The notes under the pieces: model-generated
Told to the model about the DNA's origin: nothing
Seen by the model: only the letters and a program-made list of their open reading frames with translations
Databases searched by the model: none
Translations under genes and position numbers: made by a program
Source: a bacterium
GTDB taxonomy: Bacteria; Vulcanimicrobiota; Vulcanimicrobiia; Vulcanimicrobiales; SCRA01
Length of the DNA: 17,971 bases
Assembly: GCA_004298675.1 (NCBI GenBank)
Contig: SCRI01000072.1
Coordinates: forward strand, 1 to 17,971
Reading direction: 5' to 3'
Part shown: positions 54 through 17,427 of the stretch, piece by piece
How positions within the stretch are numbered: the stretch's first letter is position 1
How the letters are laid out: each line of letters opens with the position of its first letter

Positions 54-839
54 TCAACTCGGCTCGGGTCGGAGTCTTGCGATGCGCAACAGGTTGTAGG
101 CAGCACCGATCATCTCCACGCACTGGCGGATCTTCCAGCGAACCGCGTGGCGTGCTCGCCGCAGTCCGCCCACTTTGCCCCAGCCGAAGATCTCGTCAAC
201 CAACTTTCGCTCGCGCTGACTCAACTGATATCGGGTACCACGCTGGCGCAAGCGCATGCGCCAACGAGCCCGCGCTTGCGGCGAACGTAGCCGAATCGCC
301 CCTTTTGCGCAGAGCAACGTGTGGGGTCACCTCTTGGTGCTCGAGTTCGGCCAAGAACACTCCGTCGTCGTAGCCCGCGTCGGCACCCAAGTACGTGTCA
401 CCATCAGCTGGTGGCGCCGGCGCACGCGCTTGACTATCAAGAGGGCGTTGCGGCGCTTGGCCGTCCCGTCGGCTTGATCCACCTCGAAGTCCACGATGAG
501 TCCGTGCCGATTCTCCATCAGCGCGTGGGCGCTGTGGGCAAGCATCGTCGAGCCGCCCTGGCTCTTGCGTGCCAAACGCGCCTGGGGATCGGTCAACGAG
601 CGGTGCCTGGCGTTGCTGCGCCGCTCGCCGCGAAAGTTCACCGAGGGATTGCCGCCATCCCCATTGTCGGAACCGTCGCTGACCTTCTCGTCGGGGCTCT
701 CGATGGGCCGCAGGCGCTTGAAGCTCGTGTAGCTGGCGATCAGCGTACCGTCGACGGTGAAGTACTCGTCCGAGACTAGCTCCTGAACGATGCCTCGGGC
801 CACGATACGCTCGAAGAGCGTGTGGGTGGCTGGCGACAA
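54..839 (-). pseudogene. IS5-family-type DDE transposase remnant, frameshifted and 5'-truncated
   Basis: This is a decayed transposase read on the minus strand. The first frame (839 down to about 400) carries DEYFTVDGTL, a DGGNPSVNFRGERRSN stretch and ALMENRHGL, all typical of the IS5-like family. The reading then moves to another frame, which gives GADAGYDDGVFLAELEHQ and VTPHVA between about 410 and 310. It returns to the first frame near the AAAAGGGG run (minus strand, 299-306) for SQRERKLVDEIFGWGKVGG and AAYNLLRIARL, ending at a TGA at 54-56. No single frame spans the protein, so it cannot make an intact enzyme. The usual N-terminal 60-100 residues are missing: the homology stops where a 16-bp IS-end-like motif (827-842) begins, and the apparent TTG start at 839 lies in that motif. 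No terminal inverted repeats were found. Confidence 0.85.
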
Positions 840-1115: not shown

Positions 1116-1340
1116 TCACGTCGTCTCGATCGTGACGATCGTATCGCCCTCTTGCACCATGTCAGCCTCATTGACATGGATCTCCTTGACGGTCCCTGGC
1201 GTGGGAGCGGTGACCTGGAGCTCCATCTTCATGGACTCGATGATCACGAGCACGTCATCAGCGTTGACACGGTCACCGATGCTCGATGTAATCTTCCAGA
1301 TCGACCCGGCAATATCGGCCTTCACGGGAACGAGAGCCAT
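1116..1340 (-). CDS. accB: Biotin carboxyl carrier protein, short single-domain form
   Basis: This 74-residue protein is a bare biotinyl domain. It carries the biotinylation motif ESMKM with Lys38 as the acceptor, preceded by the conserved GDRVNADDVLVI and followed by the APTPGTV turn and EGDTIVTIE strand. It would carry CO2 on biotin from the carboxylase (next gene upstream) to a carboxyltransferase. Fatty-acid-synthesis AccB is usually about 150 residues, with a long N-terminal linker that is absent here, so this looks like a dedicated carrier. The start is well supported: the strong ribosome site AGGAGGA (minus strand, 1345-1351) lies 4 nt before ATG. It begins 20 nt after the accC stop and must be co-transcribed with it. 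No accA or accD genes are in the window, so the likely partners are the PxpB/PxpC-like subunits. The symbol reflects family, not a role in fatty acid synthesis. Confidence 0.93.
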   Translation of the reverse strand: MALVPVKADIAGSIWKITSSIGDRVNADDVLVIIESMKMELQVTAPTPGTVKEIHVNEADMVQEGDTIVTIETT

Positions 1341-1360
1341 GGTGTCCTCCTCATGGTCGG

Positions 1361-2707
1361 TCAGATGCTCGCGAGAATACCGTGCGAGTCAATGAAACCA
1401 GTATCGTATTGTCCCGACGCGAAGCTCGGATGTCGAGCTATCGCTAGAAGGACGGGAATATTCGTCTTGATGCCATCAATGCGCGTTTGATTGAGGGCCT
1501 CTATCATTCGCCGAAGCGCATCGGCTCGTGCCTCACCCCAGGCGATGACCTTCGCGAGCATCGGATCGTAGTACGGCGTCACCGTATAGCCGGCCTCGAC
1601 ACCGTGATCGACACGTACATGGTCGAGCTCCGGCCAGGCGATACTTTCAATCGTACCGGGTGAGGGCAAGAGGCGCTTTGGGTCCTCGGCGTAGATCCTG
1701 CATTCGATCGCATGTCCCCGCGCCGCTGGTGCGGCATCGAATGAGAGCGGCTCGCCGGCCGCGACGCGCAACTGCTCCGCAACCAGGTCCAACCCAGTGA
1801 TCATCTCGGTCACCGGATGCTCCACCTGAAGGCGCGTGTTCATCTCCATGAAATAGAACTCACCGTGCTCATCGACAATGAACTCAAGGGTTCCGGCATT
1901 GACGTAATTGATGGCCTCCGCACCGATGACCGCCGCCTCTTCCATGCGCCGGCGTAGTTCCGGCGTGACGGCCGGCGAAAGCGCCTCCTCGATGACCTTT
2001 TGGTGGCGGCGTTGGATCGAGCACTCCCGCTCATGGAGGGCTAAGACGTGGCCACGAGCATCGCCGATGACTTGGATCTCGACGTGCCGCGGGCGCTCGA
2101 TGTACTTCTCGATGTACACCGTATCGTCTCCGAAGTAGCGCTCCGCCACCCGGCGACAACTCTCGAGTGCTCCGGCCAGAGCAATGCTCTGCCGCACGAC
2201 TTGCATCCCGATACCCCCGCCGCCGCCAGACGCCTTGACCAGCACGGGGTAGCCAAGCTCCTCCGCAAGCGCGTGAGCCGCCTGATGGTCATCGCAGGGG
2301 GAGAGCGCGCCCGGGACGATCGGCACGCTCGCCTCGCGCATGAGTTGCCGGGCCCCGAGCTTCGAGCCCATGGCGCGGATAGCCGCCGGCGCGGGGCCGA
2401 TGAAGGTTAGTCCCGCTGCCTCGCATCTCTCCGCAAACTCCGCCTTCTCAGAAAGCATCCCGTACCCCGGATGGATCGCCTCGGCCCTGGAGGCGCGGGC
2501 CGCATCGAGCAGAGCCTCCACGTGCAAGTAGCTCTGCGTGATCGGTCCCGGGCCGAGCCGGTATGCCTCGTCCGCCTCCCTCACATGGGGGGCGTCGATG
2601 TCGGCATCTGAATAAACCGCAACCGAGGCGATCCCGAGCGCGCGAAGCGTCCGCACGACTCTCCGGGCGATCTCCCCGCGGTTCGCGACCAGCACCTTTC
2701 TGAACAC
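1361..2707 (-). CDS. accC: Biotin carboxylase subunit (ATP-grasp)
   Basis: The protein uses ATP and bicarbonate to carboxylate biotin on the carrier protein. In the 448-residue form it starts MFRKVLVANRGEIA, the usual biotin carboxylase opening. HPGYGMLSE lies at about 79-87, and the ATP-grasp glycine loop KASGGGGGIGM at 158-168. HERECSIQRRHQKVIEE is at 224-240, and the catalytic FMEMNTRLQVEHPVTE at 285-300 includes Glu287, Asn289, Arg291 and Glu295. Length matches stand-alone AccC proteins (about 450). The loop has Ile166 where Arg is usual. The frame is open far upstream, but homology begins at the GTG at 2705-2707, which has GGAG six nt before it, so I chose that start. It is divergent from the gntR operon, and accB follows 20 nt downstream. 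With no AccA/AccD nearby, it probably serves the PxpB/PxpC-like carboxyltransferase rather than acetyl-CoA carboxylase. Confidence 0.93.
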   Translation of the reverse strand: MFRKVLVANRGEIARRVVRTLRALGIASVAVYSDADIDAPHVREADEAYRLGPGPITQSYLHVEALLDAARASRAEAIHPGYGMLSEKAEFAERCEAAGLTFIGPAPAAIRAMGSKLGARQLMREASVPIVPGALSPCDDHQAAHALAEELGYPVLVKASGGGGGIGMQVVRQSIALAGALESCRRVAERYFGDDTVYIEKYIERPRHVEIQVIGDARGHVLALHERECSIQRRHQKVIEEALSPAVTPELRRRMEEAAVIGAEAINYVNAGTLEFIVDEHGEFYFMEMNTRLQVEHPVTEMITGLDLVAEQLRVAAGEPLSFDAAPAARGHAIECRIYAEDPKRLLPSPGTIESIAWPELDHVRVDHGVEAGYTVTPYYDPMLAKVIAWGEARADALRRMIEALNQTRIDGIKTNIPVLLAIARHPSFASGQYDTGFIDSHGILASI

Positions 2708-2790
2708 GGAGCGCTCCAGTCCCAGGTTGACAACTCGCGTCACAATATGGTACCAACGAGTTGTGAATGACGTCATACGTATTACACGCG
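2708..2790. promoter_or_regulatory. Divergent accC/gntR control region with palindromes
   Basis: The short stretch between the two divergent units holds several symmetric sites. TGGTACCA (2748-2755) fits the T-GGT-ACC-A form seen in FCD-type GntR operators. ATGACGTCAT (2767-2776) is a perfect 10-bp palindrome, and it lies inside an imperfect 25-bp inverted repeat running from GTG (2763) to CAC (2787). A perfect -35 hexamer TTGACA is at 2727-2732, but the -10 at 18-bp spacing (TACCAA, 2751-2756) is poor. One GntR dimer bound here could control both units. Which palindrome is the operator cannot be decided from sequence. Confidence 0.45.
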
Positions 2791-3572
2791 TTCGCAATGA
2801 TACCTCCAAACTTAGCGACCGTGTGGTCGTTGAGCTCCAGCGGCAGATCTTGTCGGGGGAGCTTCCGTTCGGCGGGCGATTTCCGACCGAGGTGGAGCTC
2901 TGCGAGATGTTCGAGGTGAGCCGTACCGTCATTCGGGACGCCTTGCGGACGCTCACTGCCATTGGCCTCATCGAAGTCCAGCATGGACGTGGGATAAGCG
3001 TGACGCATCCGAACGACAAGTCAGCCGGTGCCGCGCTCGCGATCCTGCTCCTGCGCTCGAACCTCACCGTCGGCGAAGTCCTTGAGGCGCGCGGTCTCGT
3101 CGAAACCGAGATCTGCGCTCTAGCGGCCCGCTACGCCACGACCGAAGACGTGAGCCGGCTAGAGCAGAGGCTCGGGGCCTTCCGGTCGGCCGTTGAGCAA
3201 GGAAACGTTGAACAGGCCTTCGAGGAGCATTTGAGCTTCCACGCCGCACTCTACGACTCCATCCACGTCCCTGCACTGGCCCTCATGCTTCGACCAATGA
3301 TCGAGGTCATTCTCCTGAGCTCGCTTCCCCCCGTGCTCGACGAGCCACGCATGTGGGAGGTCGAGGCGCACAAGCACATTCTCGATGCAGTGCGGTCACG
3401 CGACGAGCAGCGGCTCCGCGCAGCCTTACAAGAGCACTTCCTCGAGATGGAGTCGGAATCGTATCGGGAGTACCGTTCGCAGACGCTCGCGGATTCCGAG
3501 GCCGTTCGGCACCTCATCGCCCGGATTAACGACCACCCTGTACACCACGGGAGAGACAACCTTGTCCATTGA
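2763..3572 (+). CDS. GntR-family transcriptional regulator, FadR/FCD subfamily
   Basis: The N-terminal winged helix-turn-helix runs from LSDRVVVELQRQILSGEL through FPTEVELCEMFEVSRTVI to the wing HGRGISV. An all-helical FCD ligand domain follows, with the family's EHLSFHAALYDSIH and EAHKHILDAVRSRDEQRL segments, whose acidic and His residues usually bind a metal and a carboxylate ligand. As first gene of the operon and divergent from accC, it is the likely local repressor, sensing the substrate or an intermediate; the ligand is inferred only. Start choice: an in-frame TTG at 2727 is possible, but it coincides with a TTGACA box and would leave only 19 nt to the accC start. I therefore prefer the GTG at 2763, although neither has a good ribosome site. 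Its 3' end overlaps the next gene by 11 nt. Confidence 0.85.
   Translation: MNDVIRITRVRNDTSKLSDRVVVELQRQILSGELPFGGRFPTEVELCEMFEVSRTVIRDALRTLTAIGLIEVQHGRGISVTHPNDKSAGAALAILLLRSNLTVGEVLEARGLVETEICALAARYATTEDVSRLEQRLGAFRSAVEQGNVEQAFEEHLSFHAALYDSIHVPALALMLRPMIEVILLSSLPPVLDEPRMWEVEAHKHILDAVRSRDEQRLRAALQEHFLEMESESYREYRSQTLADSEAVRHLIARINDHPVHHGRDNLVH
3549..3555 (+). promoter_or_regulatory. Ribosome-binding site deciding the TTG start of the aminotransferase
   Basis: GGGAGAG ends 6 nt before the TTG at 3562-3564. The reading frame is open far upstream (to 3385), but that part lies inside gntR and has no family similarity. This site therefore fixes the start, and it lies inside the end of gntR, implying translational coupling. 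Confidence 0.65.
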
Positions 3573-4920
3573 CGACTCGTCATCCGCGACTGTGACTTCG
3601 AGAACAGCTCAACTCTTAGATCGGCGCAAGAAGGTAATCCCTCGCGGTGTTGGTCACATGACCAAGATCGTTGCGGATCATGCGGAGGGCTCGTACCTGG
3701 TCGACGTTGACGGAAGGCGCTTCATCGACTTCTCCGGCGGGATCGGAACGCTCAACATTGGTCATCGTCACCCCGCCGTGATGACGCGCATTCAGGAGCA
3801 GCTCGACAAGCTCCACCACGTGGCAATCGGTGTCGCCCTCACGGAGCCATACATCGAGGTCGCAGAGCGTCTCTTGCCTTTGGTTCCGATACCTGGGGAC
3901 AAGAAAGCGATTCTCCTGAACAGCGGTGCCGAGGCGGTCGAAAATGCCATTAAGATCGCTCGCGCCTACACGAAGCGGCGCGGCGTCGTGTGCTTCGAGG
4001 GGGCATTCCACGGGCGCACTCTGATGACCATGACGCTTAGCAGCAAAGCGAATCCGTATAAGACCGGGTTTGGGCCATTCGCTCCGGACGTCTACCGCGT
4101 GCCGTATGCCTACTGCTACCGCTGCTCTCACGCCGACACCCCTGATCGCTGTCCGCTCCACGCGGCGGAGCCTCTGCAGCGCCTCTTCTCCGTCGAAGTC
4201 GATCCTAGCGAGATCGCCGCCGTCATCGTCGAGCCCGTTCAAGGCGAAGGCGGCTTCGTCGTCCCCCCGCCCGAGTTCTTGCGCGCGGTTCAGTCAATTT
4301 GCAGAAGCCACGGCGTGCTGCTGATCGCCGACGAGATTCAGACGGGCTTCGGACGTACCGGCAAGATGTTCGCGTGCGAGTCCGTCGGGATCGAACCAGA
4401 CCTGCTGTGCATCGGGAAGTCGCTTGCCGACGGCTTGCCGCTCAGCGCTGTCGTCGGCCGCGCGGAGGTCATGGACGGCCCCGTTCCCGGCAGCCTTGGT
4501 GGAACGTACACGGGCAATCCCATCTCATGCGCAGCGGCGCTCGGCGTGTTGGATGCCTTCGAGACCGAGGGGATCCTCGACAGCGCTCAGCGCCTCGGCA
4601 ATGCCATTCGGGCGCACTTCAGCGCCCTTCAACAGAAGTATGCTCTCATCGGCGATGTTCGCACCCTTGGTGCCATGGGAGCTATCGAACTCGTCCGCTC
4701 GCGCAAGGGACGCGAGCCGGCGAAAGATGAGACCCAGGCTGTGCTCGAGTACTGCCACGCGCATGGCCTCCTCCTCATCAAAGCAGGTATGTGGGACAAC
4801 GTCATCCGGGTGTTGATGCCGCTGAATATCCCCGACAAGGCGCTCGAGGACGGATTCCAAATCCTCGATAACGCCCTCGCTAACGTTCATCTTCATAACT
4901 CGCATCACGAACGCGTCTAA
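3562..4920 (+). CDS. gabT: 4-aminobutyrate (GABA) aminotransferase, class III PLP enzyme
   Basis: A 452-residue class III aminotransferase that would move the amino group of GABA to 2-oxoglutarate, giving succinate semialdehyde. Visible landmarks are IPRGVGHMTKIVADHAEG near the N-terminus, LNSGAEAVENAIKIAR (cofactor phosphate region), FEGAFHGRT, VEPVQGEGGFVVPP, ADEIQTGFGRTGK with Asp257 for the pyridine nitrogen, the PLP lysine Lys286 in CIGKSLADGLPLS, and the TYTGNPISCAAAL segment. Length is normal for GabT (420-450). The start is a TTG with a good ribosome site inside gntR. An insert with CYRC...C..H (Cys185, Cys188, Cys197, His200) is notable. The gene pairs with the downstream succinate-semialdehyde dehydrogenase gene to form the GABA shunt. 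Related omega-amino acids (5-aminovalerate, beta-alanine) are possible alternative substrates. Confidence 0.88.
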   Translation: MSIDDSSSATVTSRTAQLLDRRKKVIPRGVGHMTKIVADHAEGSYLVDVDGRRFIDFSGGIGTLNIGHRHPAVMTRIQEQLDKLHHVAIGVALTEPYIEVAERLLPLVPIPGDKKAILLNSGAEAVENAIKIARAYTKRRGVVCFEGAFHGRTLMTMTLSSKANPYKTGFGPFAPDVYRVPYAYCYRCSHADTPDRCPLHAAEPLQRLFSVEVDPSEIAAVIVEPVQGEGGFVVPPPEFLRAVQSICRSHGVLLIADEIQTGFGRTGKMFACESVGIEPDLLCIGKSLADGLPLSAVVGRAEVMDGPVPGSLGGTYTGNPISCAAALGVLDAFETEGILDSAQRLGNAIRAHFSALQQKYALIGDVRTLGAMGAIELVRSRKGREPAKDETQAVLEYCHAHGLLLIKAGMWDNVIRVLMPLNIPDKALEDGFQILDNALANVHLHNSHHERV

Positions 4921-4941
4921 CCACGCTAGAGGGGTACTAGG

Positions 4942-6039
4942 ATGTTACGGAGGGTCGTTTCCCTACTCGTAGTCGTTCCTTTCTTGACGGCTATGCTCAT
5001 CGCCACACCATCACCCCGTCCCGCAGCTGCGGCAGATGCTAGTTCCTGGACGTTCCCGGCCGGATTCGTCTATGCGAATGGCGAGACCAAGGACGGCATA
5101 TACCACCCGATTCCCGTCAGTCAGGTCACTAAACACTGGAAAGTCTGCGTGCTCTTTCCTCACATGAAGGACTCGTACTGGCTCGCCGCAGACTACGGCG
5201 TGGTCGCCGAGTCGCAGCGCGATCATCTGGCAATGCAACTATTCCAGGCCGGTGGATACACCAACCTCGCAACCCAACTCAACCAGATGGACGCCTGTAT
5301 CGCGCAGCACTATAACGCGATCGTGCTCGGCGCCATCAGTGCCAAGGGCGTCGCAGCAGAAGTCGACAAAGCAGCCGCTCACGGCATACCGGTCATCGAC
5401 TTCGTCAACGGCGTTGATGACCCCAAAGTTTCCGCTCACGCCCTCGTCAGCTTCTACGATCTCGCGCATACCACCGGAGAGTACATCATCAAGCACTCGA
5501 ACAGCAAGGCCGTCAACGTAGGCTACTTTCCCGGGCCTCAGGGCGCGGGTTGGTCGGACGACGCGGTGCGGGGATTTGACGATGCCATCAAGGACAGCAA
5601 CGTCCATGTTACCGTTACGCGGCGCGGTGACACCGGCGAGAATATCCAGCTGAATCTCATCCAGAATGCCATGCAGGCGTACTCGAACATCAATGCGCTT
5701 GTCGGCGTCGATATCGCCGCACAGGCAGCTGCTGTCGCCGTCCGGAATCTTAGCCTCCAGGGAAAGGTCAAGGTCTACGCCTTCGATATTATTCCGCCGG
5801 TCTACCAAGACATCGTGGATGGCAGCGCGGTCGGGTCGCCGACCGACTTCACGGTGATCCAAGGGCGTATGGCGATCGACTATGCGGTCCGTTTGCTCGA
5901 GCACAAGGCTCTCGAGGGTAATGCGAAGCGCGTCGGTCCGATCCCCAAGATGGTCACGGCTGAGAACATCAAGCAGATTCCCTGGAACGACATGTTCGCT
6001 CCGAAGAACTTCAAGGCCACCTATACCGTCCAACCGTAA
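4942..6039 (+). CDS. TorT-like periplasmic substrate-binding protein of an ABC transporter
   Basis: A 365-residue secreted binding protein. Residues 1 to about 32 are a signal peptide (basic MLRR, hydrophobic core, cleavage after a PAAAA run) with no lipobox cysteine, so it should be soluble in the periplasm. The mature part resembles the periplasmic TorT family: WKVCVLFPHMKDSYWLAADYG, QAGGYTNLATQLNQMDACI, IVLGAIS and GIPVIDFVNGV match that family's type-I binding fold. TorT normally reports TMAO to the TorS sensor kinase, but no sensor is encoded here. The next two genes are RbsA- and RbsC-like, so this protein most likely delivers substrate to them. The context suggests a small amide or lactam as ligand (inference). 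It starts 21 nt after gabT and has a TAGAGGGG-type ribosome site. Confidence 0.85.
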   Translation: MLRRVVSLLVVVPFLTAMLIATPSPRPAAAADASSWTFPAGFVYANGETKDGIYHPIPVSQVTKHWKVCVLFPHMKDSYWLAADYGVVAESQRDHLAMQLFQAGGYTNLATQLNQMDACIAQHYNAIVLGAISAKGVAAEVDKAAAHGIPVIDFVNGVDDPKVSAHALVSFYDLAHTTGEYIIKHSNSKAVNVGYFPGPQGAGWSDDAVRGFDDAIKDSNVHVTVTRRGDTGENIQLNLIQNAMQAYSNINALVGVDIAAQAAAVAVRNLSLQGKVKVYAFDIIPPVYQDIVDGSAVGSPTDFTVIQGRMAIDYAVRLLEHKALEGNAKRVGPIPKMVTAENIKQIPWNDMFAPKNFKATYTVQP

Positions 6040-6048
6040 GGAACTGTA

Positions 6049-7614
6049 TTGGACGCAGTAGCAGGACATCTCGACGAGCGTGGTGCCCCCATCGTCTCGC
6101 TCGTCGAGATCACGAAGCGGTTTGAAGGCGTTGTCGCTCTCGACGGCGTGTCGCTTGACGTCGCAGCCGGCGAAGTCGTCGTGGTGTTGGGCGAAAACGG
6201 TGCCGGAAAGTCGACACTCGTCAACGTCATGATCGGCGCCCTCCAGCCAAACGAGGGGACCATCTACGTGCGCGGTCAAAGGGTCTCTCACCAAGACCCC
6301 GCGGCTGCACGCCGCCAAGGCATCAACGCCGTCTTGCAGGATTTCAGCCTCGCGCCATCCCTCAGCGTGGCTGACAACCTGTTCCTTGGACGGGAGCCGA
6401 TGCGCCTCTTCATTCGCGACCGAGCTCGCGCGCGCCGCGAGGGGCGCGAGGCAATGCAGATGCTGGGAGTCAATATCGACGTCGATACGCCGGTATTGTT
6501 CCTCAGTCGAGCTGAACAACAGATGGTGGAAATCGTCAAGGCGCTGTGTGGGCGGCCAGGCGCCTTGATCCTCGACGAGCCGACCGCGACGCTCACCGGG
6601 GAGGAGACGCGTCGACTCTTTGAGATCGTCACGCGACTCAAGAGCGAAGGTTGGGGGGTGCTTTACATCACCCACCGCATGGAGGAGGTCCAGCGGCTCG
6701 GCGATCGCGTCGTGGTCCTTCGGGACGGTCGCCATATCTCTACGTATCGCGTCGCGAACGTGTCTGAGACGCACCTCATCCAAGACATGGTCGGCCGTCC
6801 CTTGAGCGCCCTCTACCCGGCCAAGGTGAGCGCCACGACGAATGCGCCTCCGGTGCTGCGGGTCGATAATCTCACGAGCAAGGACAAGAAGATTCTCGGC
6901 GTCTCGCTCGAGGTACGCCCCGGAGAAATCGTGGGGATCGCCGGGCTCGTCCGGTCCGGATGCTCGGAGGTAGCGCGAGCCTGCTTTGGATTGATCGAGC
7001 TCGACCAGGGATTCATCGAAATTGCCGGAGGCAGGGTCGAGAAGCCCGATCTGAGGAAGATGTTGCACCTGGGCCTCATCTACTTGCCGCAGGATCGGCG
7101 CGGCGAGGCGCTCTCCCTCTCTCGGACGATCGAAGAGAATGTTTCGCTCGAAGTCCTCGGCGAGTGGCGGTACAGCCCCTTCGGTCTGGTCAATCATGCG
7201 GCCGTCCACGAGGCCGTCGACGCGATCACCGAGCGCCTAGACGTCCGGCCGCGCAACATTCACCAGCCAGTCGTGAGTCTCTCGGGTGGGAACCAGCAAA
7301 AGGTCGTACTCGGCCGAGCGCTCACACGACCGCGCTCGGTCTACGTGTTCGACGAACCAACGGCGGGTGTCGATGTCGGTGCGCGGCAAGCCATCTACCA
7401 TCACATGCACGAGATCTGCAAGTCCGGCGCCGGCATTCTCTTCGCCTCGTCAGATCTGGAAGAGATCGTGCACCTCTCGTCTCGAGTCTACGTCATGCAC
7501 GAAGGCCGGATCCAGACCGAGCTGCACGGCGATGAGATCAACGATGAAGCGGTGGTAAGCTATTCATTTGGCCGGGACTCGGCGAACAGGGGAACGCTCC
7601 GTGCAAGCAACTGA
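6049..7614 (+). CDS. Sugar-type (RbsA-like) ABC transporter ATPase, two fused domains
   Basis: A 521-residue tandem ATPase of the RbsA/MglA/XylG class that powers import through the permease encoded next. Domain 1 has Walker A GENGAGKST (48-56), a degenerate signature LSRAEQQMVEI (from 152) and Walker B LILDEPTATLT (Asp176, Glu177). Domain 2 has the degenerate P-loop GEIVGIAGLVRSG lacking the Walker lysine, as is usual in this class, then SGGNQQKVVLGRAL (from 412) and VYVFDEPTAGVDVG (Asp435, Glu436). The start is a TTG preceded by AAGGAA, and no ATG or GTG fits before the conserved EITKRF. It lies 9 nt after the binding-protein gene and overlaps the permease gene by 14 nt. Despite the family's usual sugar substrates, the neighbours argue for a nitrogenous substrate. 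Confidence 0.92.
   Translation: MDAVAGHLDERGAPIVSLVEITKRFEGVVALDGVSLDVAAGEVVVVLGENGAGKSTLVNVMIGALQPNEGTIYVRGQRVSHQDPAAARRQGINAVLQDFSLAPSLSVADNLFLGREPMRLFIRDRARARREGREAMQMLGVNIDVDTPVLFLSRAEQQMVEIVKALCGRPGALILDEPTATLTGEETRRLFEIVTRLKSEGWGVLYITHRMEEVQRLGDRVVVLRDGRHISTYRVANVSETHLIQDMVGRPLSALYPAKVSATTNAPPVLRVDNLTSKDKKILGVSLEVRPGEIVGIAGLVRSGCSEVARACFGLIELDQGFIEIAGGRVEKPDLRKMLHLGLIYLPQDRRGEALSLSRTIEENVSLEVLGEWRYSPFGLVNHAAVHEAVDAITERLDVRPRNIHQPVVSLSGGNQQKVVLGRALTRPRSVYVFDEPTAGVDVGARQAIYHHMHEICKSGAGILFASSDLEEIVHLSSRVYVMHEGRIQTELHGDEINDEAVVSYSFGRDSANRGTLRASN
7588..7594 (+). promoter_or_regulatory. Ribosome-binding site setting the permease start
   Basis: AGGGGAA ends 6 nt before the GTG at 7601. The frame also has an upstream TTG (7568), but that has no comparable site. 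The GTG gives an N-terminus that leads directly into the first hydrophobic segment. Confidence 0.6.
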
Positions 7615-8665
7615 CTCGAGAAACAACCCCGTCGTGCAACTCGGTGACGGCCTTCGGAATATCTTCGCAAAGACCGGCGCCCTGCCGTTCTTGCTCGTGA
7701 TTCTGGTCGTCGTCTTCCAGTTGGCGAACAGCCGCTTTCTGGGACGACAGAACATGGAGGACATGCTTCACGAGGGTGTGTTCCTGGCCTTGGCATCGCT
7801 TGGTCAGATGTTCATCCTTGTATCGGGGGGCTTCGACCTCTCGATCGGCTCGAACATCGCCCTTACAAGCATTTCCAGTGCGTCAGTGATGGCCGCAGTC
7901 TATGGCGTTCACCCGGGAGCCGCTGGCCAGGCGATCGCTGCGGGCGCAGCAACAGCCGCCGTTGTGGGATTGGTCGTCGGCCTGGTCAACGGTGTGGGCG
8001 TCGCCGTGCTCGGCGTCAACCCATTCATCGTTACCCTCGCGACAGCTAGCGCTTTCCAAGGTATCACCTTGTTGATCAGTCAAGGCCAAGAGGTCGGAGG
8101 ACTGCCCAATGCCTTCATCACGAGCGTTGGCTCCGGTTCGTGGCTCGGCCTCCCGATCGCCGGTTGGGTCACGCTTCCCCTCGTCCTCGGGCTCTACGTG
8201 CTCCTGGCTTGGGCACGGTACGGCAGGTACATCTTCGCCATCGGCTCAAATGCGGCCGCGGCGCGTGTGGCTGGGGTTCACGTCGGCCTGCAGGTCCTGG
8301 CGACCTATGTGATCTGCGCCGTTGCAACTGCCATAGCCGGGTTCCTCCTCACGGCCCGCGTCTCGGCCGGCGAGCCGTTGCTGGGCGCTGAGTATACCTT
8401 GCAGAGCATAACGGCCGCCGTCATCGGGGGGGCATCCCTCCGCGGCGGACGGGGCAGCATCGGCGGCACGCTCCTCGGCGTTGTATTCGTGATCTTTCTC
8501 GCCGACGGCATGGACCTCATGCGCCTCGGCTCCAACCACGAGATGATCGCATTGGGGCTCGTGCTCATCTTCGCCGTCGTCGCGGACAGACAACGCGCCA
8601 AGGCCGTCGCCGCGGGATACCAGAAGCGCCTGATTTCTCAGTCCGATCCCGCGACGGAGGGCTAA
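7601..8665 (+). CDS. RbsC-like ABC transporter permease
   Basis: A 354-residue integral membrane protein of the branched-chain amino acid/ribose-type permease superfamily. The first membrane segment is near residues 25-42 (LPFLLVILVVVFQLA). The family landmark SGGFDLSIGSNIALTS follows EGVFLALASLGQMFILV. Later segments include VVGLVVGLVNGVGV, VNPFIVTLATASAFQGI, IGSNAAAARVAGVHV (the cytoplasmic coupling loop), and VIGGASLRGGRGSIGGTLLGV. Length is typical of RbsC (320-350). Its start overlaps the ATPase gene by 14 nt and the next gene begins 1 nt after its stop, so it is translationally coupled both ways. Only one permease gene is present, so it probably acts as a homodimer with the fused ATPase, as RbsC does. 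Confidence 0.92.
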   Translation: MQATDSRNNPVVQLGDGLRNIFAKTGALPFLLVILVVVFQLANSRFLGRQNMEDMLHEGVFLALASLGQMFILVSGGFDLSIGSNIALTSISSASVMAAVYGVHPGAAGQAIAAGAATAAVVGLVVGLVNGVGVAVLGVNPFIVTLATASAFQGITLLISQGQEVGGLPNAFITSVGSGSWLGLPIAGWVTLPLVLGLYVLLAWARYGRYIFAIGSNAAAARVAGVHVGLQVLATYVICAVATAIAGFLLTARVSAGEPLLGAEYTLQSITAAVIGGASLRGGRGSIGGTLLGVVFVIFLADGMDLMRLGSNHEMIALGLVLIFAVVADRQRAKAVAAGYQKRLISQSDPATEG

Positions 8666-8666
8666 C

Positions 8667-9644
8667 GTGGAAGAGGCATCCCAAGCCTGCGTCATCGAGC
8701 GGCGTCCCGCCGCCGGAGGCAAGCCAAGCGTCACCTACCGTTACGCCGGCGACCGCTACCTTCTCGCCGAGTATGGCGAGATGAACTTCGACCTCACGCT
8801 GAACTTCATTGTGCAGGCTGTGGACGGCGCGCTTCAACGAACTCCGTTCGAAGGCCTCATCGAGGCGGCACCCGGCTTCCGATCCATTCTCGTATCCTAT
8901 GAGCCGCGCTCCTGCCGGCTTGCCGGCCTCATCGAGCACCTCGACCGCATCTACGACGGCATCCCGGACGAGAAGTCCCTCGTGATCCCAAGCCGGCGCA
9001 TTTACCTGCCGATCGCGTTCGATGACAGCCAGACGCGAGAGGCGGTCACGCGGTACGCGCAGCTGATTCGGGCCGATGCTCCAAACGTCGAGGGGGGGAC
9101 GAACGTCGACTATACGGTGCGGTACAACGGCTTCTCCGACCGCGAGGAGCTCTATGCCGCAGTGCTCGGTGCGGAGCTCTGGACCGCATTCATCGGGTTC
9201 TTTCCGGGATTGCCCTTCATGTTTCCGCTCGATCCGCTGCGCTTCATCTTCGTCCCGAAGTACAATCCCACGCGCACATGGACGCCTGAGGGCGCCGTGG
9301 GCATCGGAGGCCCGTGCTACTCCATCTACCCGGTCGAATCTCCCGGAGGTTACCAGCTCATCGGGCGGACCCTCCCGATCTACGACCTACGGCAGCGAAA
9401 CAGCGCCTTCAAGTCGGATCCCATCTTGGTGCGACCAGCCGACCGCATCGTCTTTCATCGAGTCTCGGAGCAGGAGTTGCTCGACGGATTTGCAGACGTA
9501 CACGCGGACCGCTACCAGTATCGCATCGAGGACGCGCCGTTCGACGTGAGTGCCTATCTGGCATACTTGGAGCGCATCCGCCCCGAGGCCGAGGCGTGGC
9601 GGCACGCGCGTGAGGAAGCGGCACAGCGGACGCCAGTGGCCTAG
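8667..9644 (+). CDS. pxpB: Carboxyltransferase subunit A (PxpB/KipI family, urea-carboxylase-like)
   Basis: A 325-residue member of the allophanate hydrolase subunit 1 / carboxyltransferase domain family, half of a two-part carboxyltransferase. Family signs are GEMNFDLTLNFIVQAVDGAL (about 37-56), GFFPGLPFMFPLDP (about 178-191), the motif KYNPTRTWTPEGAVGIGG soon after, and ESPGGYQLIGRTLPIYD. That motif is what I expect of the carboxyltransferase region of urea carboxylases (R-TWTPE-AVGIGG); KipI/PxpB proteins read closer to PRTRVPAGSVGIAGG. It also exceeds the roughly 220-residue KipI type in length. This favours a biotin-dependent reaction with the accC and accB products encoded nearby. The GTG start has GGAGGG before it. 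It is one nt after the permease gene and is followed by its partner subunit gene. The symbol marks family only: activity on 5-oxoproline is not shown. Confidence 0.85.
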   Translation: MEEASQACVIERRPAAGGKPSVTYRYAGDRYLLAEYGEMNFDLTLNFIVQAVDGALQRTPFEGLIEAAPGFRSILVSYEPRSCRLAGLIEHLDRIYDGIPDEKSLVIPSRRIYLPIAFDDSQTREAVTRYAQLIRADAPNVEGGTNVDYTVRYNGFSDREELYAAVLGAELWTAFIGFFPGLPFMFPLDPLRFIFVPKYNPTRTWTPEGAVGIGGPCYSIYPVESPGGYQLIGRTLPIYDLRQRNSAFKSDPILVRPADRIVFHRVSEQELLDGFADVHADRYQYRIEDAPFDVSAYLAYLERIRPEAEAWRHAREEAAQRTPVA

Positions 9645-9674
9645 TTTGACGAATGACGAGCGAGGAATCAGACC

Positions 9675-10670
9675 ATGAGCAGCCCGCATGATCGCAGTCT
9701 GGAGATTCTCGAGGCTGGGATCCATTCAACGGTGCAGGACTTCCCGGGGCGTCGCGGATATCAAGCGCGGGGATTCTTCCCTGCGGGCCCCATGGACGCA
9801 TTCGCACTTCGCGCAGCGAATCTCTTGGTCGCAAACGACGAAGGCGCAGCGGGCATTGAGATCACGCTTGGAAAGTTCGCCGTGCGCTTCACCTGCGAGA
9901 CCACGGCTGCGTTGACCGGGGCTGCCGTCGACGCTACGCTCAACGGTGAGCCGCTTAGCTTGTGGGGGACAGTTCACGTCGCTGCGGGCGACGAGCTGCG
10001 CATCGGCATGGCGAAGGGGCCGGGCTTCCGCGTCTACCTGGCGGTCGCGGGCGGCATCGACGTGCCGTTGGTACTGGGATCCCGCGCGACATACACGATG
10101 GGGGCGCTCGGCGGCCTCGACGGGCGCCTCTTGAAGAAGGGGGACCACCTCTCCCTGCTGCCCTCGACGACGGCGCCTCGGCGGTACCGATTCGAAGCCG
10201 ACGCTGTTCCCCACTATAGCCGCGAGTGGGAAATCGAGGTGATGCGCGGACCACAGGCAGATCCGGATTTTCTGACGCCGGAGGACCTCTCCACGTTCTT
10301 CGCATCCCCTTGGAGCGTCGGTCATAACTCTAATCGTGTCGGTGTGCGCCTCGGGACGACGCACTTCACTTGGGCGCGCAAGACGGGTGGCGTCGCCGGA
10401 GGACACCCGTCCAACATCCTTGATAACGGGTATCCGCTTGGCGGAATCAACTTGAACGGCGATACGCCGGTCATCCTTGGTCCCGACGGACCGACCGCCG
10501 GGGGATTCGTGGTCATCGCCACCGTCGTCGGCGGCGCGCTTTGGAAACTCGGTCAACTACGGCCCGGCAGTGACGCGATCCGATTCAAGGAGGTTGACTA
10601 CGCTGCAGCAGCCTCTTTGACGCGAGATCTCGAGGCAAGGCTTTCCGGCGAGCACCTGGTGGAGATATAG
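9675..10670 (+). CDS. pxpC: Carboxyltransferase subunit B (PxpC/KipA family)
   Basis: A 331-residue protein of the allophanate hydrolase subunit 2 / biotin-dependent carboxyltransferase family (KipA, PxpC), the partner of the previous gene's product. The diagnostic N-terminus is visible: LEILEAGIHSTVQDFPGRRG, then FFPAGPMDAFALRAANLLV and GIEITLGKFAVRF. Further on come YLAVAGGIDVPLVLGSRATYTMGALGG, the SNRVGVRLG strand, and the closing LGPDGPTAGGFVVIATV, all in the usual order. Length fits (about 310-340). The ATG has GAGGAA 9 nt upstream. It starts 30 nt after pxpB and ends 3 nt before pxpA. In urea carboxylase both halves are fused to biotin carboxylase and carrier domains, whereas here the four parts are separate genes. 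Confidence 0.9.
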   Translation: MSSPHDRSLEILEAGIHSTVQDFPGRRGYQARGFFPAGPMDAFALRAANLLVANDEGAAGIEITLGKFAVRFTCETTAALTGAAVDATLNGEPLSLWGTVHVAAGDELRIGMAKGPGFRVYLAVAGGIDVPLVLGSRATYTMGALGGLDGRLLKKGDHLSLLPSTTAPRRYRFEADAVPHYSREWEIEVMRGPQADPDFLTPEDLSTFFASPWSVGHNSNRVGVRLGTTHFTWARKTGGVAGGHPSNILDNGYPLGGINLNGDTPVILGPDGPTAGGFVVIATVVGGALWKLGQLRPGSDAIRFKEVDYAAAASLTRDLEARLSGEHLVEI

Positions 10671-10673
10671 ACC

Positions 10674-11462
10674 ATGATCAAGATGGATATTAACGTCGAC
10701 ATGGGCGAGGGCTTTGGGCGGTGGACGCTAGGCGACGATGAGGCGCTCATGCCCTACATTTCCTCGGCGAATATCGCTTGCGGGTTTCATGCGGGTGACC
10801 CGAGAATCATGCGACGGACCGTTAGCGCAGCGGTGCGCCACGGGCTCGACATCGGCGCGCACGTCGCACTTCCGGATCTCCTTGGGTTCGGTCGCCGCCG
10901 AATGGCGCTTTCTCCGGAAGAGGTGCGCGACTACGGTACCTATCAGATTGGGGCGCTCTGGGCGTTCGTGAAGAGCGAAGGTGGGACGCTGTCGTACGTC
11001 AAGCCCCACGGCTCGCTCTATGCGATGATCAACGAGAATCCGGCGATGGCGTCCGCTCTCGCCGAAGGTCTCGCGGGCATCGATCCCGACCTCATCCTTC
11101 TGCTGCTCAACCGAAATACCGAAGCAGCGGTCGCGCGCCACGGCATCCGCCTCATCGCCGAGGGATTCGTCGATCTGGACTACGATGCCAAAGGCAACCT
11201 CATCATCGAGCGAGTGAAGGCCGCGCGGGATCCGGACGACGTCGCGACGCGTGCGTTGCGGATCGCAACGGAGCACAAGGTACGAACGATCGAAGGGATC
11301 GATCTGAGCGTGGACACGCCGACCATCTGCATTCATGGCGATGCTCCAAACGCACTGGATGTAGTAAGCGCGACACGCCGCCGCTTCGACGAAGCGGGCA
11401 TTTCGCTCATGCCTATTCGCCGTATTCTCGCATCGCACTCGCCGGAGCAGCCCGTGGCATGA
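10674..11462 (+). CDS. pxpA: LamB/YcsF family protein (PxpA-like lactam/5-oxoproline opening subunit)
   Basis: A 262-residue LamB/YcsF protein. The hallmark start DINVDMGEGFGRW, SANIACGFHAGDPRIMRRTV and VKPHGSLYAMI are all present, with the acidic and His residues of the polysaccharide-deacetylase-like fold. Bacterial members (PxpA) work with PxpB and PxpC in ATP-dependent opening of 5-oxoproline. The fungal namesake LamB is needed for growth on 2-pyrrolidinone. Here the GABA genes on either side make a gamma-lactam the more likely substrate (inference). Length is normal (about 250). ATG is preceded by GGAG 9 nt upstream, and a second ATG three codons in could also serve. Its stop overlaps the start of the dehydrogenase gene (ATGA), indicating translational coupling. 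Confidence 0.9.
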   Translation: MIKMDINVDMGEGFGRWTLGDDEALMPYISSANIACGFHAGDPRIMRRTVSAAVRHGLDIGAHVALPDLLGFGRRRMALSPEEVRDYGTYQIGALWAFVKSEGGTLSYVKPHGSLYAMINENPAMASALAEGLAGIDPDLILLLLNRNTEAAVARHGIRLIAEGFVDLDYDAKGNLIIERVKAARDPDDVATRALRIATEHKVRTIEGIDLSVDTPTICIHGDAPNALDVVSATRRRFDEAGISLMPIRRILASHSPEQPVA

Positions 11463-12949
11463 GGCACACCGGCAATGCGACCGTGGCTGGTCACGAGAAC
11501 GCCCTGATGGTCCTCAAATCCGTGCCCTCTGGCATGCTCATCGGCGGGAGCTGGGTTGCCGCGACGTCCGGCACCACGATGGCCGTCGAAGACCCGGCGA
11601 CGGGAGAGGTCATCGCCTCGGTACCCGATGCCTCCCCACGGGATGCGGCCGAGGCCGCTCGTCACGTCGTCGAAGCTCAGCGAACCTGGAGCTCCACGTC
11701 TCCCGAAGAACGCAGTGAGATCCTGCGGCGGGCGTTCGAGCGGATGACGGAAAGGGCGGAGGAACTCGCGTGCCTCGTCACGCTCGAGAACGGAAAGCCG
11801 CTGGCTGAAGCGCGCGCGGAAGTCGCCTACGCCGCCGAGTTCTTTCGCTGGTTTAGCCATCAGGCTGTCGCACTCGGCGGAGGCTTTGGACGACCGCCGA
11901 GCGGCTCGGGGCGTATTCTGGTCATGCGACAGCCCGTCGGTCCGGCGCTGCTCATCACCCCGTGGAACTTCCCGCTCGCGATGCTGACCCGCAAAATCGG
12001 CCCGGCCATCGCCGCAGGCTGCACGATGATCGTCAAGCCGGCACCCGAGACGCCGCTGAGCGCCCTCGTGCTCGGTTCTCTGCTGATCTCGGTTGGTCTC
12101 CCGGCCGAGACCATCAGCATCATCACGACCTCTCACGCGGACACGGTGGTCGAAGCGATCCTCAAGGAGCCCGGAATCCGTAAGATCAGCTTCACTGGCT
12201 CGACGGAGATTGGACGCCTCCTTCTCCATCGTGCTGCGGATCGAGTGCTGCGGACGTCAATGGAGCTCGGCGGGAACGCGCCGTTTATCGTCTTTTCCGA
12301 TGCCGACTTGGAACTCGCTGTTGAAGGGGCGGTGGTCGCGAAGATGCGCAACGGCGGGGAGTCCTGCATCGCAGCGAATCGCATGTACGTCCAGAGGTCC
12401 GTCGCTGCGGAATTCTCCAGTCGTCTTGCGAATCGGATGCGGCAGCTGCGCGTGGGTCATGGGCTCGATGCCGACGTCGAGGTTGGGCCGCTCATTAATG
12501 CCGAAGGCAAGGCCAAAGTGGAAGCTCTCGTCGACGACATGCTGCAGCGCGGAGGGTCTTTGCTAGTTGGAGGTACACGCATGACCGGCAAAGGATACTT
12601 CTTCGCACCAACGGTTATCGCGGATGTCCCCCCGCAGAGTCGCGTACTCCATGAAGAGATCTTCGGGCCGGTGGCGCCTATCATCAGCTTCGACGGTGAG
12701 GCCGAGGCGATCGCGTTGGCGAACGCTACGCCTTTCGGCCTCGCCGCGTATGCCTTCACGCGAGACCTCGGACGCGCGATGCGCGTTTCAGAGTCGCTCG
12801 AGGCCGGGATGGTCGGCATCAATACCGGCCTCATCTCGACGCCCGCCGCACCTTTCGGAGGGAGCAAGCAGAGCGGCTTGGGCCGCGAAGGCGGAGACCA
12901 AGGGATGTCCGAGTATCTCGAGACCAAATACGTTCGCGTCAACTGGTAA
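11459..12949 (+). CDS. gabD: Succinate-semialdehyde dehydrogenase (aldehyde dehydrogenase family)
   Basis: A 496-residue NAD(P)-dependent aldehyde dehydrogenase. It has the cofactor-binding segments TPWNFPLAMLTRKIGPAIAA and IVKPAPETPLSAL, the FTGSTEIGRLL loop, general base Glu269 in MELGGNAPFIVF, catalytic Cys303 in GGESCIAANRMYV, and EIFGPVAPIISF near the C-terminus. The ELGGNAPFIVF and GGSKQSGLGREGG stretches fit the GabD branch best. With gabT in the same operon, oxidation of succinate semialdehyde to succinate is the natural role. Start: ATG at 11459 overlaps the pxpA stop. A later ATG at 11507 would remove 16 residues before the conserved region and cannot be excluded. The next gene lies 14 nt downstream. 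Glutarate-semialdehyde oxidation is an alternative if the cluster handles a C5 lactam. Confidence 0.87.
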   Translation: MRHTGNATVAGHENALMVLKSVPSGMLIGGSWVAATSGTTMAVEDPATGEVIASVPDASPRDAAEAARHVVEAQRTWSSTSPEERSEILRRAFERMTERAEELACLVTLENGKPLAEARAEVAYAAEFFRWFSHQAVALGGGFGRPPSGSGRILVMRQPVGPALLITPWNFPLAMLTRKIGPAIAAGCTMIVKPAPETPLSALVLGSLLISVGLPAETISIITTSHADTVVEAILKEPGIRKISFTGSTEIGRLLLHRAADRVLRTSMELGGNAPFIVFSDADLELAVEGAVVAKMRNGGESCIAANRMYVQRSVAAEFSSRLANRMRQLRVGHGLDADVEVGPLINAEGKAKVEALVDDMLQRGGSLLVGGTRMTGKGYFFAPTVIADVPPQSRVLHEEIFGPVAPIISFDGEAEAIALANATPFGLAAYAFTRDLGRAMRVSESLEAGMVGINTGLISTPAAPFGGSKQSGLGREGGDQGMSEYLETKYVRVNW

Positions 12950-12963
12950 TAGGAGAAAGCCGC

Positions 12964-13530
12964 ATGTCGCGCATCTTGTCCATGGCCCAAGCCCGGTGGC
13001 GACCCGATACGACGGCCCTCGTCATCAGCGGCTCACTTGTGATGGCGTTCTCCGCCCATATCGCGGTGCGCGTTCCCTTCAGCCCTGTGCCGATCACCGG
13101 TCAGACTCTTGCCCTTCCCTTGATCGTCGCCGCTCTCGGCAGGAACCGCGCGGTCATGGCGATCTTCCTGTACCTCGCAGAAGGAGCGAGCGGTTTGCCC
13201 GTCTTTGCCCCTGGCGGCATCGGTCCGTTCACGCTGATCGGTCCTACCGCCGGTTACCTCTGGGGCTTTCTCGGCGCGGCGTGGCTCCTTGGCACGCTCT
13301 TCGAGCTCGGGCTCGTCGAGAACGTTCTGGGGCGCCTGCTCTCCATCGCGCTCTCAGACGCCGTGGTCTTCGCATTAGGTGCCGTATGGCTCGCGCACTT
13401 CGTGGGCATCGACCGCGCATTCGCGCTAGGTGTCACGCCATTCTTGGTTGGCGATGCGCTCAAGGTCGGGATCGCAACGTTCACGGCGCCAGCGGCTTTC
13501 CGCGTTACGGCGATGTTCCCGCGTCACTAG
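12964..13530 (+). CDS. bioY: BioY biotin transporter (S component)
   Basis: A 188-residue membrane protein of the BioY family, which takes up biotin alone or with an ECF energy module. The signature VRVPFSPVPITGQTLALPL is clear (about 35-53), followed by AIFLYLAEGASGLPVFAPGG, IGPTAGYLWGFLGA and hydrophobic helices, giving about six membrane segments in all, which is usual. It starts with ATG after AGGAG, 14 nt from the dehydrogenase stop, so it belongs to the same operon. A biotin importer beside a biotin carboxylase and carrier suggests cofactor supply for this pathway. No EcfA or EcfT genes are present, so it either works alone or shares a module encoded elsewhere. Its last 26 nt overlap the convergent gene. 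Confidence 0.93.
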   Translation: MSRILSMAQARWRPDTTALVISGSLVMAFSAHIAVRVPFSPVPITGQTLALPLIVAALGRNRAVMAIFLYLAEGASGLPVFAPGGIGPFTLIGPTAGYLWGFLGAAWLLGTLFELGLVENVLGRLLSIALSDAVVFALGAVWLAHFVGIDRAFALGVTPFLVGDALKVGIATFTAPAAFRVTAMFPRH

Positions 13531-14494
13531 CTTCCTGACCCTCACGCGCAAAGTCGTTGATGGCGGCTGCGAGGAGGGCGAGCTTCCTCCCCTTCTGTCC
13601 CTGCGTCCAGTCGCTCGAGTGCGGCGTCATGATGACGTTGTCGAGCGACTGGAAGGGACAGTGCGCTGGAAGCATCGGCTCGGAGGCAAGATCCGGTGGG
13701 TACTGATACCACACGTCAAGTGCAGCACCCGCGATGCGACGATCCCGCAGCGCTACGAAGAGATCGTGCTCGACGCAGATCGCGCCACGGGACACGTTGA
13801 CGAGATGGGCCGTGGGCTTCATAAGCTTAAGCCTCCTAGCATCGATCAGTCCTCGCGTCAACGAGGAGAGCTCGCAGCAGATCACGACTGCATCTGCAGA
13901 TGCCACGAGCGCGTCGATGTCGGAAGGATTGGCGATGCTGCCGAGTGTGGCAATACCCTCGGACTCGGCGACGAGGCGCTCAGGGTGCATCGTCACGGTG
14001 CGTGCACGCACAGAGAAGCCGTGCAGCCGTTTTAGCACTTCGCGGCCGATCCGTCCGAAGCCAATGAAACCCACCGTCGATCCATAGAGCTCGCCAACCC
14101 AGGCATCGGGGCGGTTGTTGCTAAACAGCCAATTGCCGGCACGAAGACCATGATCCGCGATCAGGAACTGCTGTCGCAATGCGATCAGTCCGCCGACGAC
14201 GTACTCCGCGATCGGAATCTCATGCCCTCCGCCGTTGACCACTCGAGCGCCAGCTGGGAGCAGGCTACGATTGATGCGATCTGTTCCGGCATTCGGGCAT
14301 ACCAATAGCCGTAACGCCGGGGTCGCGCCCGCGAGAGTCTCATCGTATGACTTCGACACAACAACGTCAGCGTCTGCAAGCTCCGGATCCTGCCTTGCCG
14401 ACGCTTCTGAGTCCATCGGCACATAGACAATGTCGTCATGGAGAAGGGCTCTAAGTTCATCGCCCCAGAGCGGCTCGAGATTCACGACTTTCAC
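13505..14494 (-). CDS. D-isomer 2-hydroxyacid dehydrogenase, NAD-binding
   Basis: A 329-residue protein of the D-2-hydroxyacid dehydrogenase family. The Rossmann motif GFIGFGRIG has GxGxxG at 145-150. Arg236 in LVNVSRGAI and His292 in MTPHSSDW match the catalytic Arg and His. Where many members have DV(F/Y)E with the catalytic Glu, this one reads LDVWYQYPP (Tyr263), a variant whose effect I cannot judge. Substrate is unknown: candidates are reduction of a 2-keto acid or glyoxylate-type compound. It is convergent with bioY and overlaps it by 26 nt, leaving no room for a terminator. It starts with GTG and I see no clear ribosome site. It is not obviously part of the lactam route and may have its own promoter in the 200 bp upstream. 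Confidence 0.85.
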   Translation of the reverse strand: MKVVNLEPLWGDELRALLHDDIVYVPMDSEASARQDPELADADVVVSKSYDETLAGATPALRLLVCPNAGTDRINRSLLPAGARVVNGGGHEIPIAEYVVGGLIALRQQFLIADHGLRAGNWLFSNNRPDAWVGELYGSTVGFIGFGRIGREVLKRLHGFSVRARTVTMHPERLVAESEGIATLGSIANPSDIDALVASADAVVICCELSSLTRGLIDARRLKLMKPTAHLVNVSRGAICVEHDLFVALRDRRIAGAALDVWYQYPPDLASEPMLPAHCPFQSLDNVIMTPHSSDWTQGQKGRKLALLAAAINDFAREGQEASDAGTSP

Positions 14495-14935: not shown

Positions 14936-14941
14936 CTCAGC

Positions 14942-14985
14942 GGGCAGTTCAAAATGTACCAGCTGTGGGCAGTTGAAAGTGTACC
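14942..14985 (+). repeat. Left-end repeats of IS21 element B (two copies)
   Basis: GGGCAGTTCAAAATGTACC (14942-14960) and GGGCAGTTGAAAGTGTACC (14967-14985) are direct repeats 25 bp apart, differing at two positions. They match, inverted, the three copies at the right end and are presumably IstA-binding sites. Confidence 0.85.
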
Positions 14986-15021
14986 GGCCCCGGGCTGGGT
15001 GATTATGGTCGCAATGCTTGG

Positions 15022-17318: not shown

Positions 17319-17340
17319 GCCCGGGCCAGTCAGGAGAGGT

Positions 17341-17412
17341 GGTACAGTTTCAACTGCCCACCGACCCCTGGTACATTTTCACGTGCCCATCGGTGGTACA
17401 CTTTGCGTGCCC
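17341..17412 (-). repeat. Right-end repeats of IS21 element B (three copies)
   Basis: GGTACAGTTTCAACTGCCC (17341-17359), GGTACATTTTCACGTGCCC (17370-17388) and GGTACACTTTGCGTGCCC (17395-17412) are inverted relative to the two left-end copies. The unequal number, two on the left and three on the right, is visible directly. Confidence 0.85.
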
Positions 17413-17419
17413 GCCGAGG

Positions 17420-17427
17420 CTTGTTGC
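17420..17427. repeat. Target-site duplication of IS21 element B, right copy
   Basis: CTTGTTGC, identical to 14928-14935. The bases that follow (TCGTAATG) continue the disrupted istB of element A in frame. Confidence 0.85.

Follow-up and report, generated by a model that had tools for sequence, protein, structure and literature searches.

A split urea-carboxylase-type biotin enzyme with a LamB/YcsF partner in a Vulcanimicrobiales contig: a gene cluster with a probable role in lactam opening

The window analysed here is the entire contig SCRI01000072.1 (NCBI GenBank assembly GCA_004298675.1), a stretch of 17,971 bases from a bacterium of the order Vulcanimicrobiales whose genome measures 3.03 Mb and is 98.5% complete; one end of the contig is occupied by IS21 genes. 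The window harbours a cluster encoding a biotin carboxylase (BC), a biotin carboxyl carrier protein (BCCP), two carboxyltransferase (CT) subunits and a LamB/YcsF protein, together with a gamma-aminobutyrate (GABA) aminotransferase, a succinate-semialdehyde dehydrogenase (SSADH) homologue, an ABC importer, a biotin importer subunit and a regulator. A first-pass annotation, made from the sequence alone, had read these genes as a biotin-dependent route from a gamma-lactam to succinate, and every gene that it named was found in its place by Pfam and NCBIfam profiles. The identities of the cluster genes are certain. Since the domain scores far exceed the curated Pfam cut-offs and the core is syntenic across phyla, we consider the cluster to be more than a chance assembly; its probable function, as read from the sequences, is the biotin-dependent opening of a cyclic amide.

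On the minus strand lie the gene for the carrier (1116-1340; 74 aa, motif ESMKMEL, Pfam Biotin_lipoyl 66.4 bits) and that for the BC (1361-2707), which has a GTG start and three Pfam biotin carboxylase domains. The BC, one of four in the host genome, scored 602.8 bits against the AccC-type NCBIfam model, which is under the model cut-off, and is thus regarded as an AccC-like paralogue. Next to it is a divergent control region (2708-2762) with a palindrome, TGGTACCA, at 2748-2755 and inverted arms nearby at 2727-2737 and 2757-2767; this is a candidate operator for the GntR protein, and no match to a sigma-70-type promoter was found in the gap. The plus strand starts with a GntR/FCD-family regulator (about 2763-3572, start uncertain; Pfam GntR and FCD), followed by GabT, the GABA aminotransferase (3562-4920, TTG start), and by the importer, which consists of a TorT-family CUT2 substrate-binding protein (4942-6039; NCBIfam PRK10936, 304.7 bits), a sugar-type ATPase with a double cassette (6049-7614; two Pfam ABC_tran stretches) and an RbsC-like permease (about 7604-8665, start uncertain, with the open reading frame (ORF) opening at 7568; Pfam BPD_transp_2). 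The three-part importer of the first-pass annotation is present and is typed here as a CUT2 system; among solved structures, its binding protein matched PDB 4yhs with 272.6 bits and TorT (3o1h) with 130.8 bits. Further downstream on the same strand are the CT_C_D subunit (8667-9644; 325 aa), the CT_A_B subunit (9675-10670), the LamB/YcsF subunit of the PxpA family, a putative ring opener (10674-11462; Pfam LamB_YcsF 287.5 bits, PDB 1v6t 227.2 bits), the GabD-like SSADH homologue (11459-12949) and BioY, a biotin importer subunit (12964-13530; Pfam BioY 113.6 bits). The cluster genes are almost contiguous, with gaps of a few bases and several overlaps, which fits two divergent transcription units around 2708-2762.

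The two CT subunits had been named as PxpB and PxpC, the partners of PxpA in the prokaryotic 5-oxoprolinase PxpABC; NCBIfam scores, a tree and sequence motifs rule this out and place them with urea carboxylase instead. The CT_C_D protein scored 270.1 bits with TIGR02712 (urea_carbox) and 66.6 bits with the PxpB model TIGR00370 (cut-off 145.55), with which a true PxpB encoded elsewhere in the host genome scored 150.2 bits. The CT_A_B protein scored 358.3 bits with TIGR02712 as against 180.1 bits with the PxpC model NF045499, whose cut-off of 500 bits is strict, the PxpC on host contig C78 reaching only 193.6 bits. For both subunits the best match among solved structures was the Kluyveromyces urea carboxylase/urea amidolyase (PDB 3va7; 168.9 bits for CT_C_D and 234.9 bits for CT_A_B). 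The BC and the BCCP likewise match the urea-carboxylase model, so that TIGR02712 falls on four separate genes (558, 358, 270 and 66 bits), each under the cut-off of 1303 bits for a single polypeptide. The possibility of an acetyl-CoA carboxylase was also ruled out, the CTs being CT_A_B and CT_C_D proteins and not crotonase-fold AccA/AccD. The proposal of a split carboxylase linked to LamB was therefore borne out, with the carboxylase being of the urea-carboxylase type.

We built a tree from 57 CT_C_D sequences, which comprised proteins of the module (the core BC+BCCP+CT+CT+LamB), fused urea-carboxylase homologues and the two PxpB proteins of the host. The class A proteins, from the window, Thermomicrobia, Thermoleophilia and other taxa, grouped with the fused homologues; the class B proteins, namely proteobacterial and haloarchaeal copies and one copy each from three actinomycetes, formed a second clade; and the two host PxpB proteins stood on a separate long branch. 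Judged from this tree, the CTs fall into two lineages, of which one groups with urea carboxylase and the other is found in proteobacteria, actinomycetes and haloarchaea. The closest CT relatives of the window, with 56-64% identity, are in Thermoleophilia. The CT_A_B segment G.HPSN..D..Y does not vary across the two module classes and the fused enzymes; the PxpC proteins compared lack it, and E. coli YbgK, too, has a gap there. Likewise, both module classes and the fused biotin enzymes share residues K198, Y199, T206, Y229 and Q230 of CT_C_D, which the PxpB proteins compared lack. Where the fused enzymes have GVYLGAPV, the CT_C_D of the module has GFFPGLPF, with Phe178, Leu182 and Phe184 common to both module classes. 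Since the two diverged classes share changes lacking in the fused enzymes, these changes suggest a common acceptor other than urea. The position corresponding to yeast Asn1330, which we take to be a substrate-contacting residue, is Asn in most class A proteins, Gln in class B and Asp in 11 of the 12 fused homologues. Asp at this position is presumably a mark of guanidine carboxylases, and such enzymes may stand behind many records that bear the name urea carboxylase. A split CT pair without LamB, seen in Dehalococcoidia, branches with the fused homologues and may be a true split urea carboxylase.

The core recurs in Thermomicrobia, Thermoleophilia, Rokubacteria, Sysuimicrobiota, actinomycetes, proteobacterial plasmids and haloarchaea. 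A scan of genome contigs and class-level searches yielded 42 class A loci, and plasmid searches yielded 89 class B records. In the annotated alpha- and betaproteobacterial plasmid loci the genes stand in one row, pxpA-accB-accC-CT-CT, without exception (17/17). The core genes are currently labelled in databases as 5-oxoprolinase, allophanate hydrolase or acetyl-CoA carboxylase. A TorT importer accompanies 13 of the 42 class A loci, which were found through CT and include the window, and none of 59 control loci carrying a fused urea-carboxylase homologue; the class B figure is biased, many class B loci having been found via TorT.

The neighbours of the core vary. A trio of molybdenum hydroxylase genes occurs at eleven loci of the Thermomicrobia type; the nearest solved structure to that of T. 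roseum is quinoline 2-oxidoreductase, an enzyme that converts an N-heterocycle into a cyclic amide. Another molybdenum hydroxylase trio is present at the Diaphorobacter and Sulfitobacter loci. The Thermoleophilia copies adjoin hydantoinase A/B genes, and for one of these caprolactamase is the nearest match, at a score under its cut-off; in Phaeobacter the TorT importer occurs with hydantoinase A/B, and hydroxyacid-dehydrogenase-like genes lie beside some module loci. Because independent neighbours, hydroxylases and hydantoinases, point to cyclic-amide chemistry, a lactam is well supported as the substrate class, and the variety of the neighbours suggests that the family as a whole acts on several cyclic amides. 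Whether all these loci make up one widespread class of biotin-dependent lactam carboxylase-hydrolases, in which relatives of urea carboxylase would N-carboxylate cyclic amides for opening by LamB, with two CT lineages in bacteria and archaea, often a TorT importer, and interchangeable upstream and downstream enzymes, is in our estimate an evenly balanced question.

Biotin dependence, part of the original proposal, is supported by several features. The MK biotinylation motif with its biotinyl lysine is invariant in 56 of 56 aligned carriers, among them those contained in the fused urea-carboxylase homologues, and BioY is present in the window cluster and at six related loci. No BATS/BioB domain was detected in the host genome by a search that found it in 8 of 14 control genomes, which fits a host that probably imports its biotin. 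In Rhizobium CIAT894, genes for an SSADH, a carbonic anhydrase, bioB, a bioF-like synthase and bioD follow directly behind the module, and the Acidiphilium module locus carries bioB. Carbonic anhydrase and biotin genes would be the expected recruits of an enzyme that consumes bicarbonate and biotin.

The GabT of the window scored 547.6 bits with TIGR00700, above the equivalog cut-off of 506.65, and for the SSADH homologue TIGR01780 was the best among 44 families (560.4 bits). With minimum scores of 400 bits for GabT and 450 bits for GabD, we compared 64 module loci with the 59 controls. GabD was present at 8 of the module loci and at none of the controls (7/63 with the window excluded, Fisher p = 0.008), and GabT at 5/64 and 0/59, respectively (p = 0.07 with the window excluded); these p-values are rough, the loci being related and not a random sample. 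More telling than the p-values is the varied placement of the two genes: in Ruegeria gabD-gabT lies upstream of the core and divergent from it, in Aestuarium it follows downstream of the importer, in Agrobacterium T29 it comes immediately after the CT genes, and in ANGP1 gabT is at the head of the operon. Aldehyde dehydrogenases at two Thermomicrobiales loci were rejected as gabD, as they stand with aromatic-pathway hpaB, FAA-hydrolase and dioxygenase-like genes, and transaminases of about 140-155 bits near several Thermomicrobia copies scored too low to be counted as GabT. The co-occurrence that the first-pass annotation proposed to look for thus holds widely for the core and at few loci for gabT and gabD; since most relatives carry neither, the two genes are a recurrent accessory outside the core.

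Several points weigh against a biotin-dependent route through 2-pyrrolidinone and GABA. The absence of gabT and gabD from most relatives is what the first-pass annotation had named as refuting its proposal; it means that a GABA product can be argued for the window and a few other loci, and that other lactams are likely elsewhere. The score of the SSADH homologue is below the model cut-off of 646.35, and the host has another GabT, the best other copy being 50% identical to that of the window. Members of the GabT and SSADH families accept 5-aminovalerate and glutarate semialdehyde as well, so delta-valerolactam is a possible substrate too. Finally, PxpABC, which yields glutamate and requires no GabT or GabD, opens 5-oxoproline without a BC or BCCP, so LamB does not rely on biotin chemistry everywhere. 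Taking these points together with the evidence above, we think it fairly probable that the cluster serves the catabolism of a lactam, most likely 2-pyrrolidinone or a close derivative that would be opened to GABA in the window. The lactam class and the GABA branch of the earlier proposal gained support, the latter from its return beside the core in Ruegeria, Aestuarium and Agrobacterium; 2-pyrrolidinone itself is favoured rather than established, as the simplest fit to a GabT above its equivalog cut-off next to an SSADH homologue.

In the mechanism that we propose, the lactam would be imported by the TorT/CUT2 system, the BC would carboxylate the biotin of the 74-aa carrier using ATP and bicarbonate, and the two CT subunits would transfer the carboxyl group onto the nitrogen of the lactam, after the precedent of urea carboxylase. 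N-carboxylation would make the ring carbonyl imide-like, and the activated N-carboxylactam would be hydrolysed by LamB/YcsF. The resulting N-carboxy-amino acid would spontaneously shed CO2 and leave the amino acid, so that bicarbonate would be catalytic and the net cost would be one ATP. GabT and the SSADH homologue would then convert the amino acid to succinate semialdehyde and succinate, while BioY would supply biotin and the GntR protein would control the divergent promoters. The lactam as carboxyl acceptor, the N-carboxylation and the action of LamB on the carboxylated ring are all presumed by analogy; transfer of the carboxyl group to carbon or oxygen may occur instead and would be compatible with the sequences.

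We weighed four other explanations. A biotin-dependent 5-oxoprolinase, in which PxpABC would work with the BC and BCCP to give glutamate and gabT and gabD would be present by chance, appears very unlikely. The window LamB does match PxpA models (291 bits with NF003814, cut-off 226), and in C. glutamicum a GntR regulator senses 5-oxoproline and controls pxpTABC (PMC13274462), but the CT subunits fall far short of the cut-offs of the PxpB and PxpC models and gabT and gabD rejoin the core in distant taxa. Moreover, host contig C78 holds a true PxpABC set, with PxpB above the cut-off together with PxpA and PxpC, and contig C70 holds a PxpA/PxpB pair; since the genome has this separate set, 5-oxoproline is an unlikely substrate of the cluster, in agreement with the first-pass annotation. 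It is still more improbable that the cluster encodes a split urea or guanidine carboxylase serving nitrogen assimilation. The urea-carboxylase affinities of all four carboxylase parts are what such an enzyme would display; however, neither allophanate hydrolase nor carboxyguanidine deiminase was found in the cluster, which has LamB instead, and both module classes depart from the fused enzymes at the GFFPGLPF residues and, mostly, in having Asn or Gln for Asp at the position of yeast Asn1330.

A less remote alternative keeps the same enzyme and changes the lactam: delta-valerolactam, an N-substituted pyrrolidinone or a hydroxylated N-heterocycle would be opened, and the GabT/GabD homologues would process 5-aminovalerate or a related omega-amino acid. 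Relatives replace gabT and gabD by molybdenum hydroxylases, caprolactamase-like hydantoinases or hydroxyacid-dehydrogenase-like genes, which suggests that substrates differ within the family; for the window we nevertheless hold this unlikely, given a transaminase that passes the GABA-transaminase equivalog cut-off and a dehydrogenase nearest to SSADH. The last explanation, which is compatible with lactam opening, concerns the host: the contig may be mis-binned or a passive mobile island, its link to the host and to biotin auxotrophy being accidental. The split type was found in 1 of 117 genomes of the class, that of the window, and is lacking in three genus mates, the two other matches being fused enzymes of more than 1,100 aa; the GC content of the window is 62.4% as against 64.1-70.0% in 18 sampled host chunks; and IS21 genes stand at one contig end. 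On the other hand, its tetranucleotide correlation of 0.67 is within the range of the host chunks (0.66-0.80), albeit at the low end, and foreign loci reach 0.69. We judge this explanation doubtful but worth keeping in mind; transfer by a mobile element or mis-binning is possible and would leave the proposed lactam function unaffected.

Urea carboxylase/urea amidolyase (yeast DUR1,2; Kluyveromyces lactis KlUA, PDB 3va7 and 5i8i) has the same four parts, BC, CT_A_B, CT_C_D and BCCP, and the window CTs are nearest to it in sequence and keep its invariant residues. In the window, however, the parts are separate proteins with a changed CT_C_D motif, LamB/YcsF is present and allophanate hydrolase is not among the genes. 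PxpABC resembles the window system in combining LamB/PxpA with two CT-fold subunits, in opening a lactam with ATP and, in C. glutamicum, in its GntR-type regulator, but it differs in that PxpB and PxpC are without the biotin-enzyme residues, no BC or BCCP gene is included and the product is glutamate. In Aspergillus nidulans, the AmdR regulon is described as co-regulating lamA and lamB, for lactam use, with gatA and gabA (PMC8016842), and the window similarly unites LamB with a GABA transaminase; the portions available of that source mention no bacterial-type importer or biotin genes. CapAB/OplBA, for which bicarbonate and carboxyphosphate mechanisms have been considered, opens caprolactam or valerolactam with ATP (PMC8453981), but it belongs to an unrelated protein family, hydantoinase A/B, and uses no biotin; genes of this family adjoin some module copies, as mentioned above. 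No description of the present gene set was found in the searchable literature, most subscription journals being outside its coverage, and within it the coupling of urea-carboxylase-type chemistry to LamB is apparently undescribed. If our reading is true, the cluster would add to PxpABC and the CapAB/hydantoinase family a third ATP-driven route of lactam opening, in which biotin is used and bicarbonate recycled. It would assign a function to mislabelled genes in up to 89 plasmid records and many genomes, suggest in molecular terms what LamB does in the use of 2-pyrrolidinone, name the TorT-CUT2 family as a candidate lactam importer, and bear on the breakdown of pyrrolidone solvents and nylon-4-type monomers.

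Some further observations were made on related loci and on the host. A plasmid of Rhodococcus sp. PD04 carries a TorT importer, an amidohydrolase, an SSADH and a flavin-dependent oxidoreductase and resembles a pyridine-degradation cluster; a literature search on pyridine clusters gave nothing useful. In Prauserella, Nocardia and Nocardioides, class A and class B CT pairs share one locus with one BC and one LamB, and haloarchaeal plasmids of Haladaptatus and Natribaculum carry the module or parts of it. The PxpA/PxpB pair on host contig C70 (7886-9715 of the stretch 51000-67000) has no PxpC detected with it; it adjoins LIV-type ABC and CoA-transferase-like genes and, in addition, two proteins of 410 and 468 aa whose family is unknown, the former without an NCBIfam match. 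The PxpC on contig C78 (8740-10035) has a C-terminal extension resembling a biotinyl domain in which the lysine is missing (AELEVMGERRPL).

Outside the cluster, an ORF on the minus strand of the window (327-839) reads like a decayed transposase and has no Pfam match. A D-2-hydroxyacid dehydrogenase-like gene (13505-14494, minus strand) lies between BioY and the IS21 genes. The latter, of which no second full copy was found elsewhere in the genome, comprise istA and two istB at 14937-17803, with 36-nt inverted repeats at 14950-14985 and 17370-17405.

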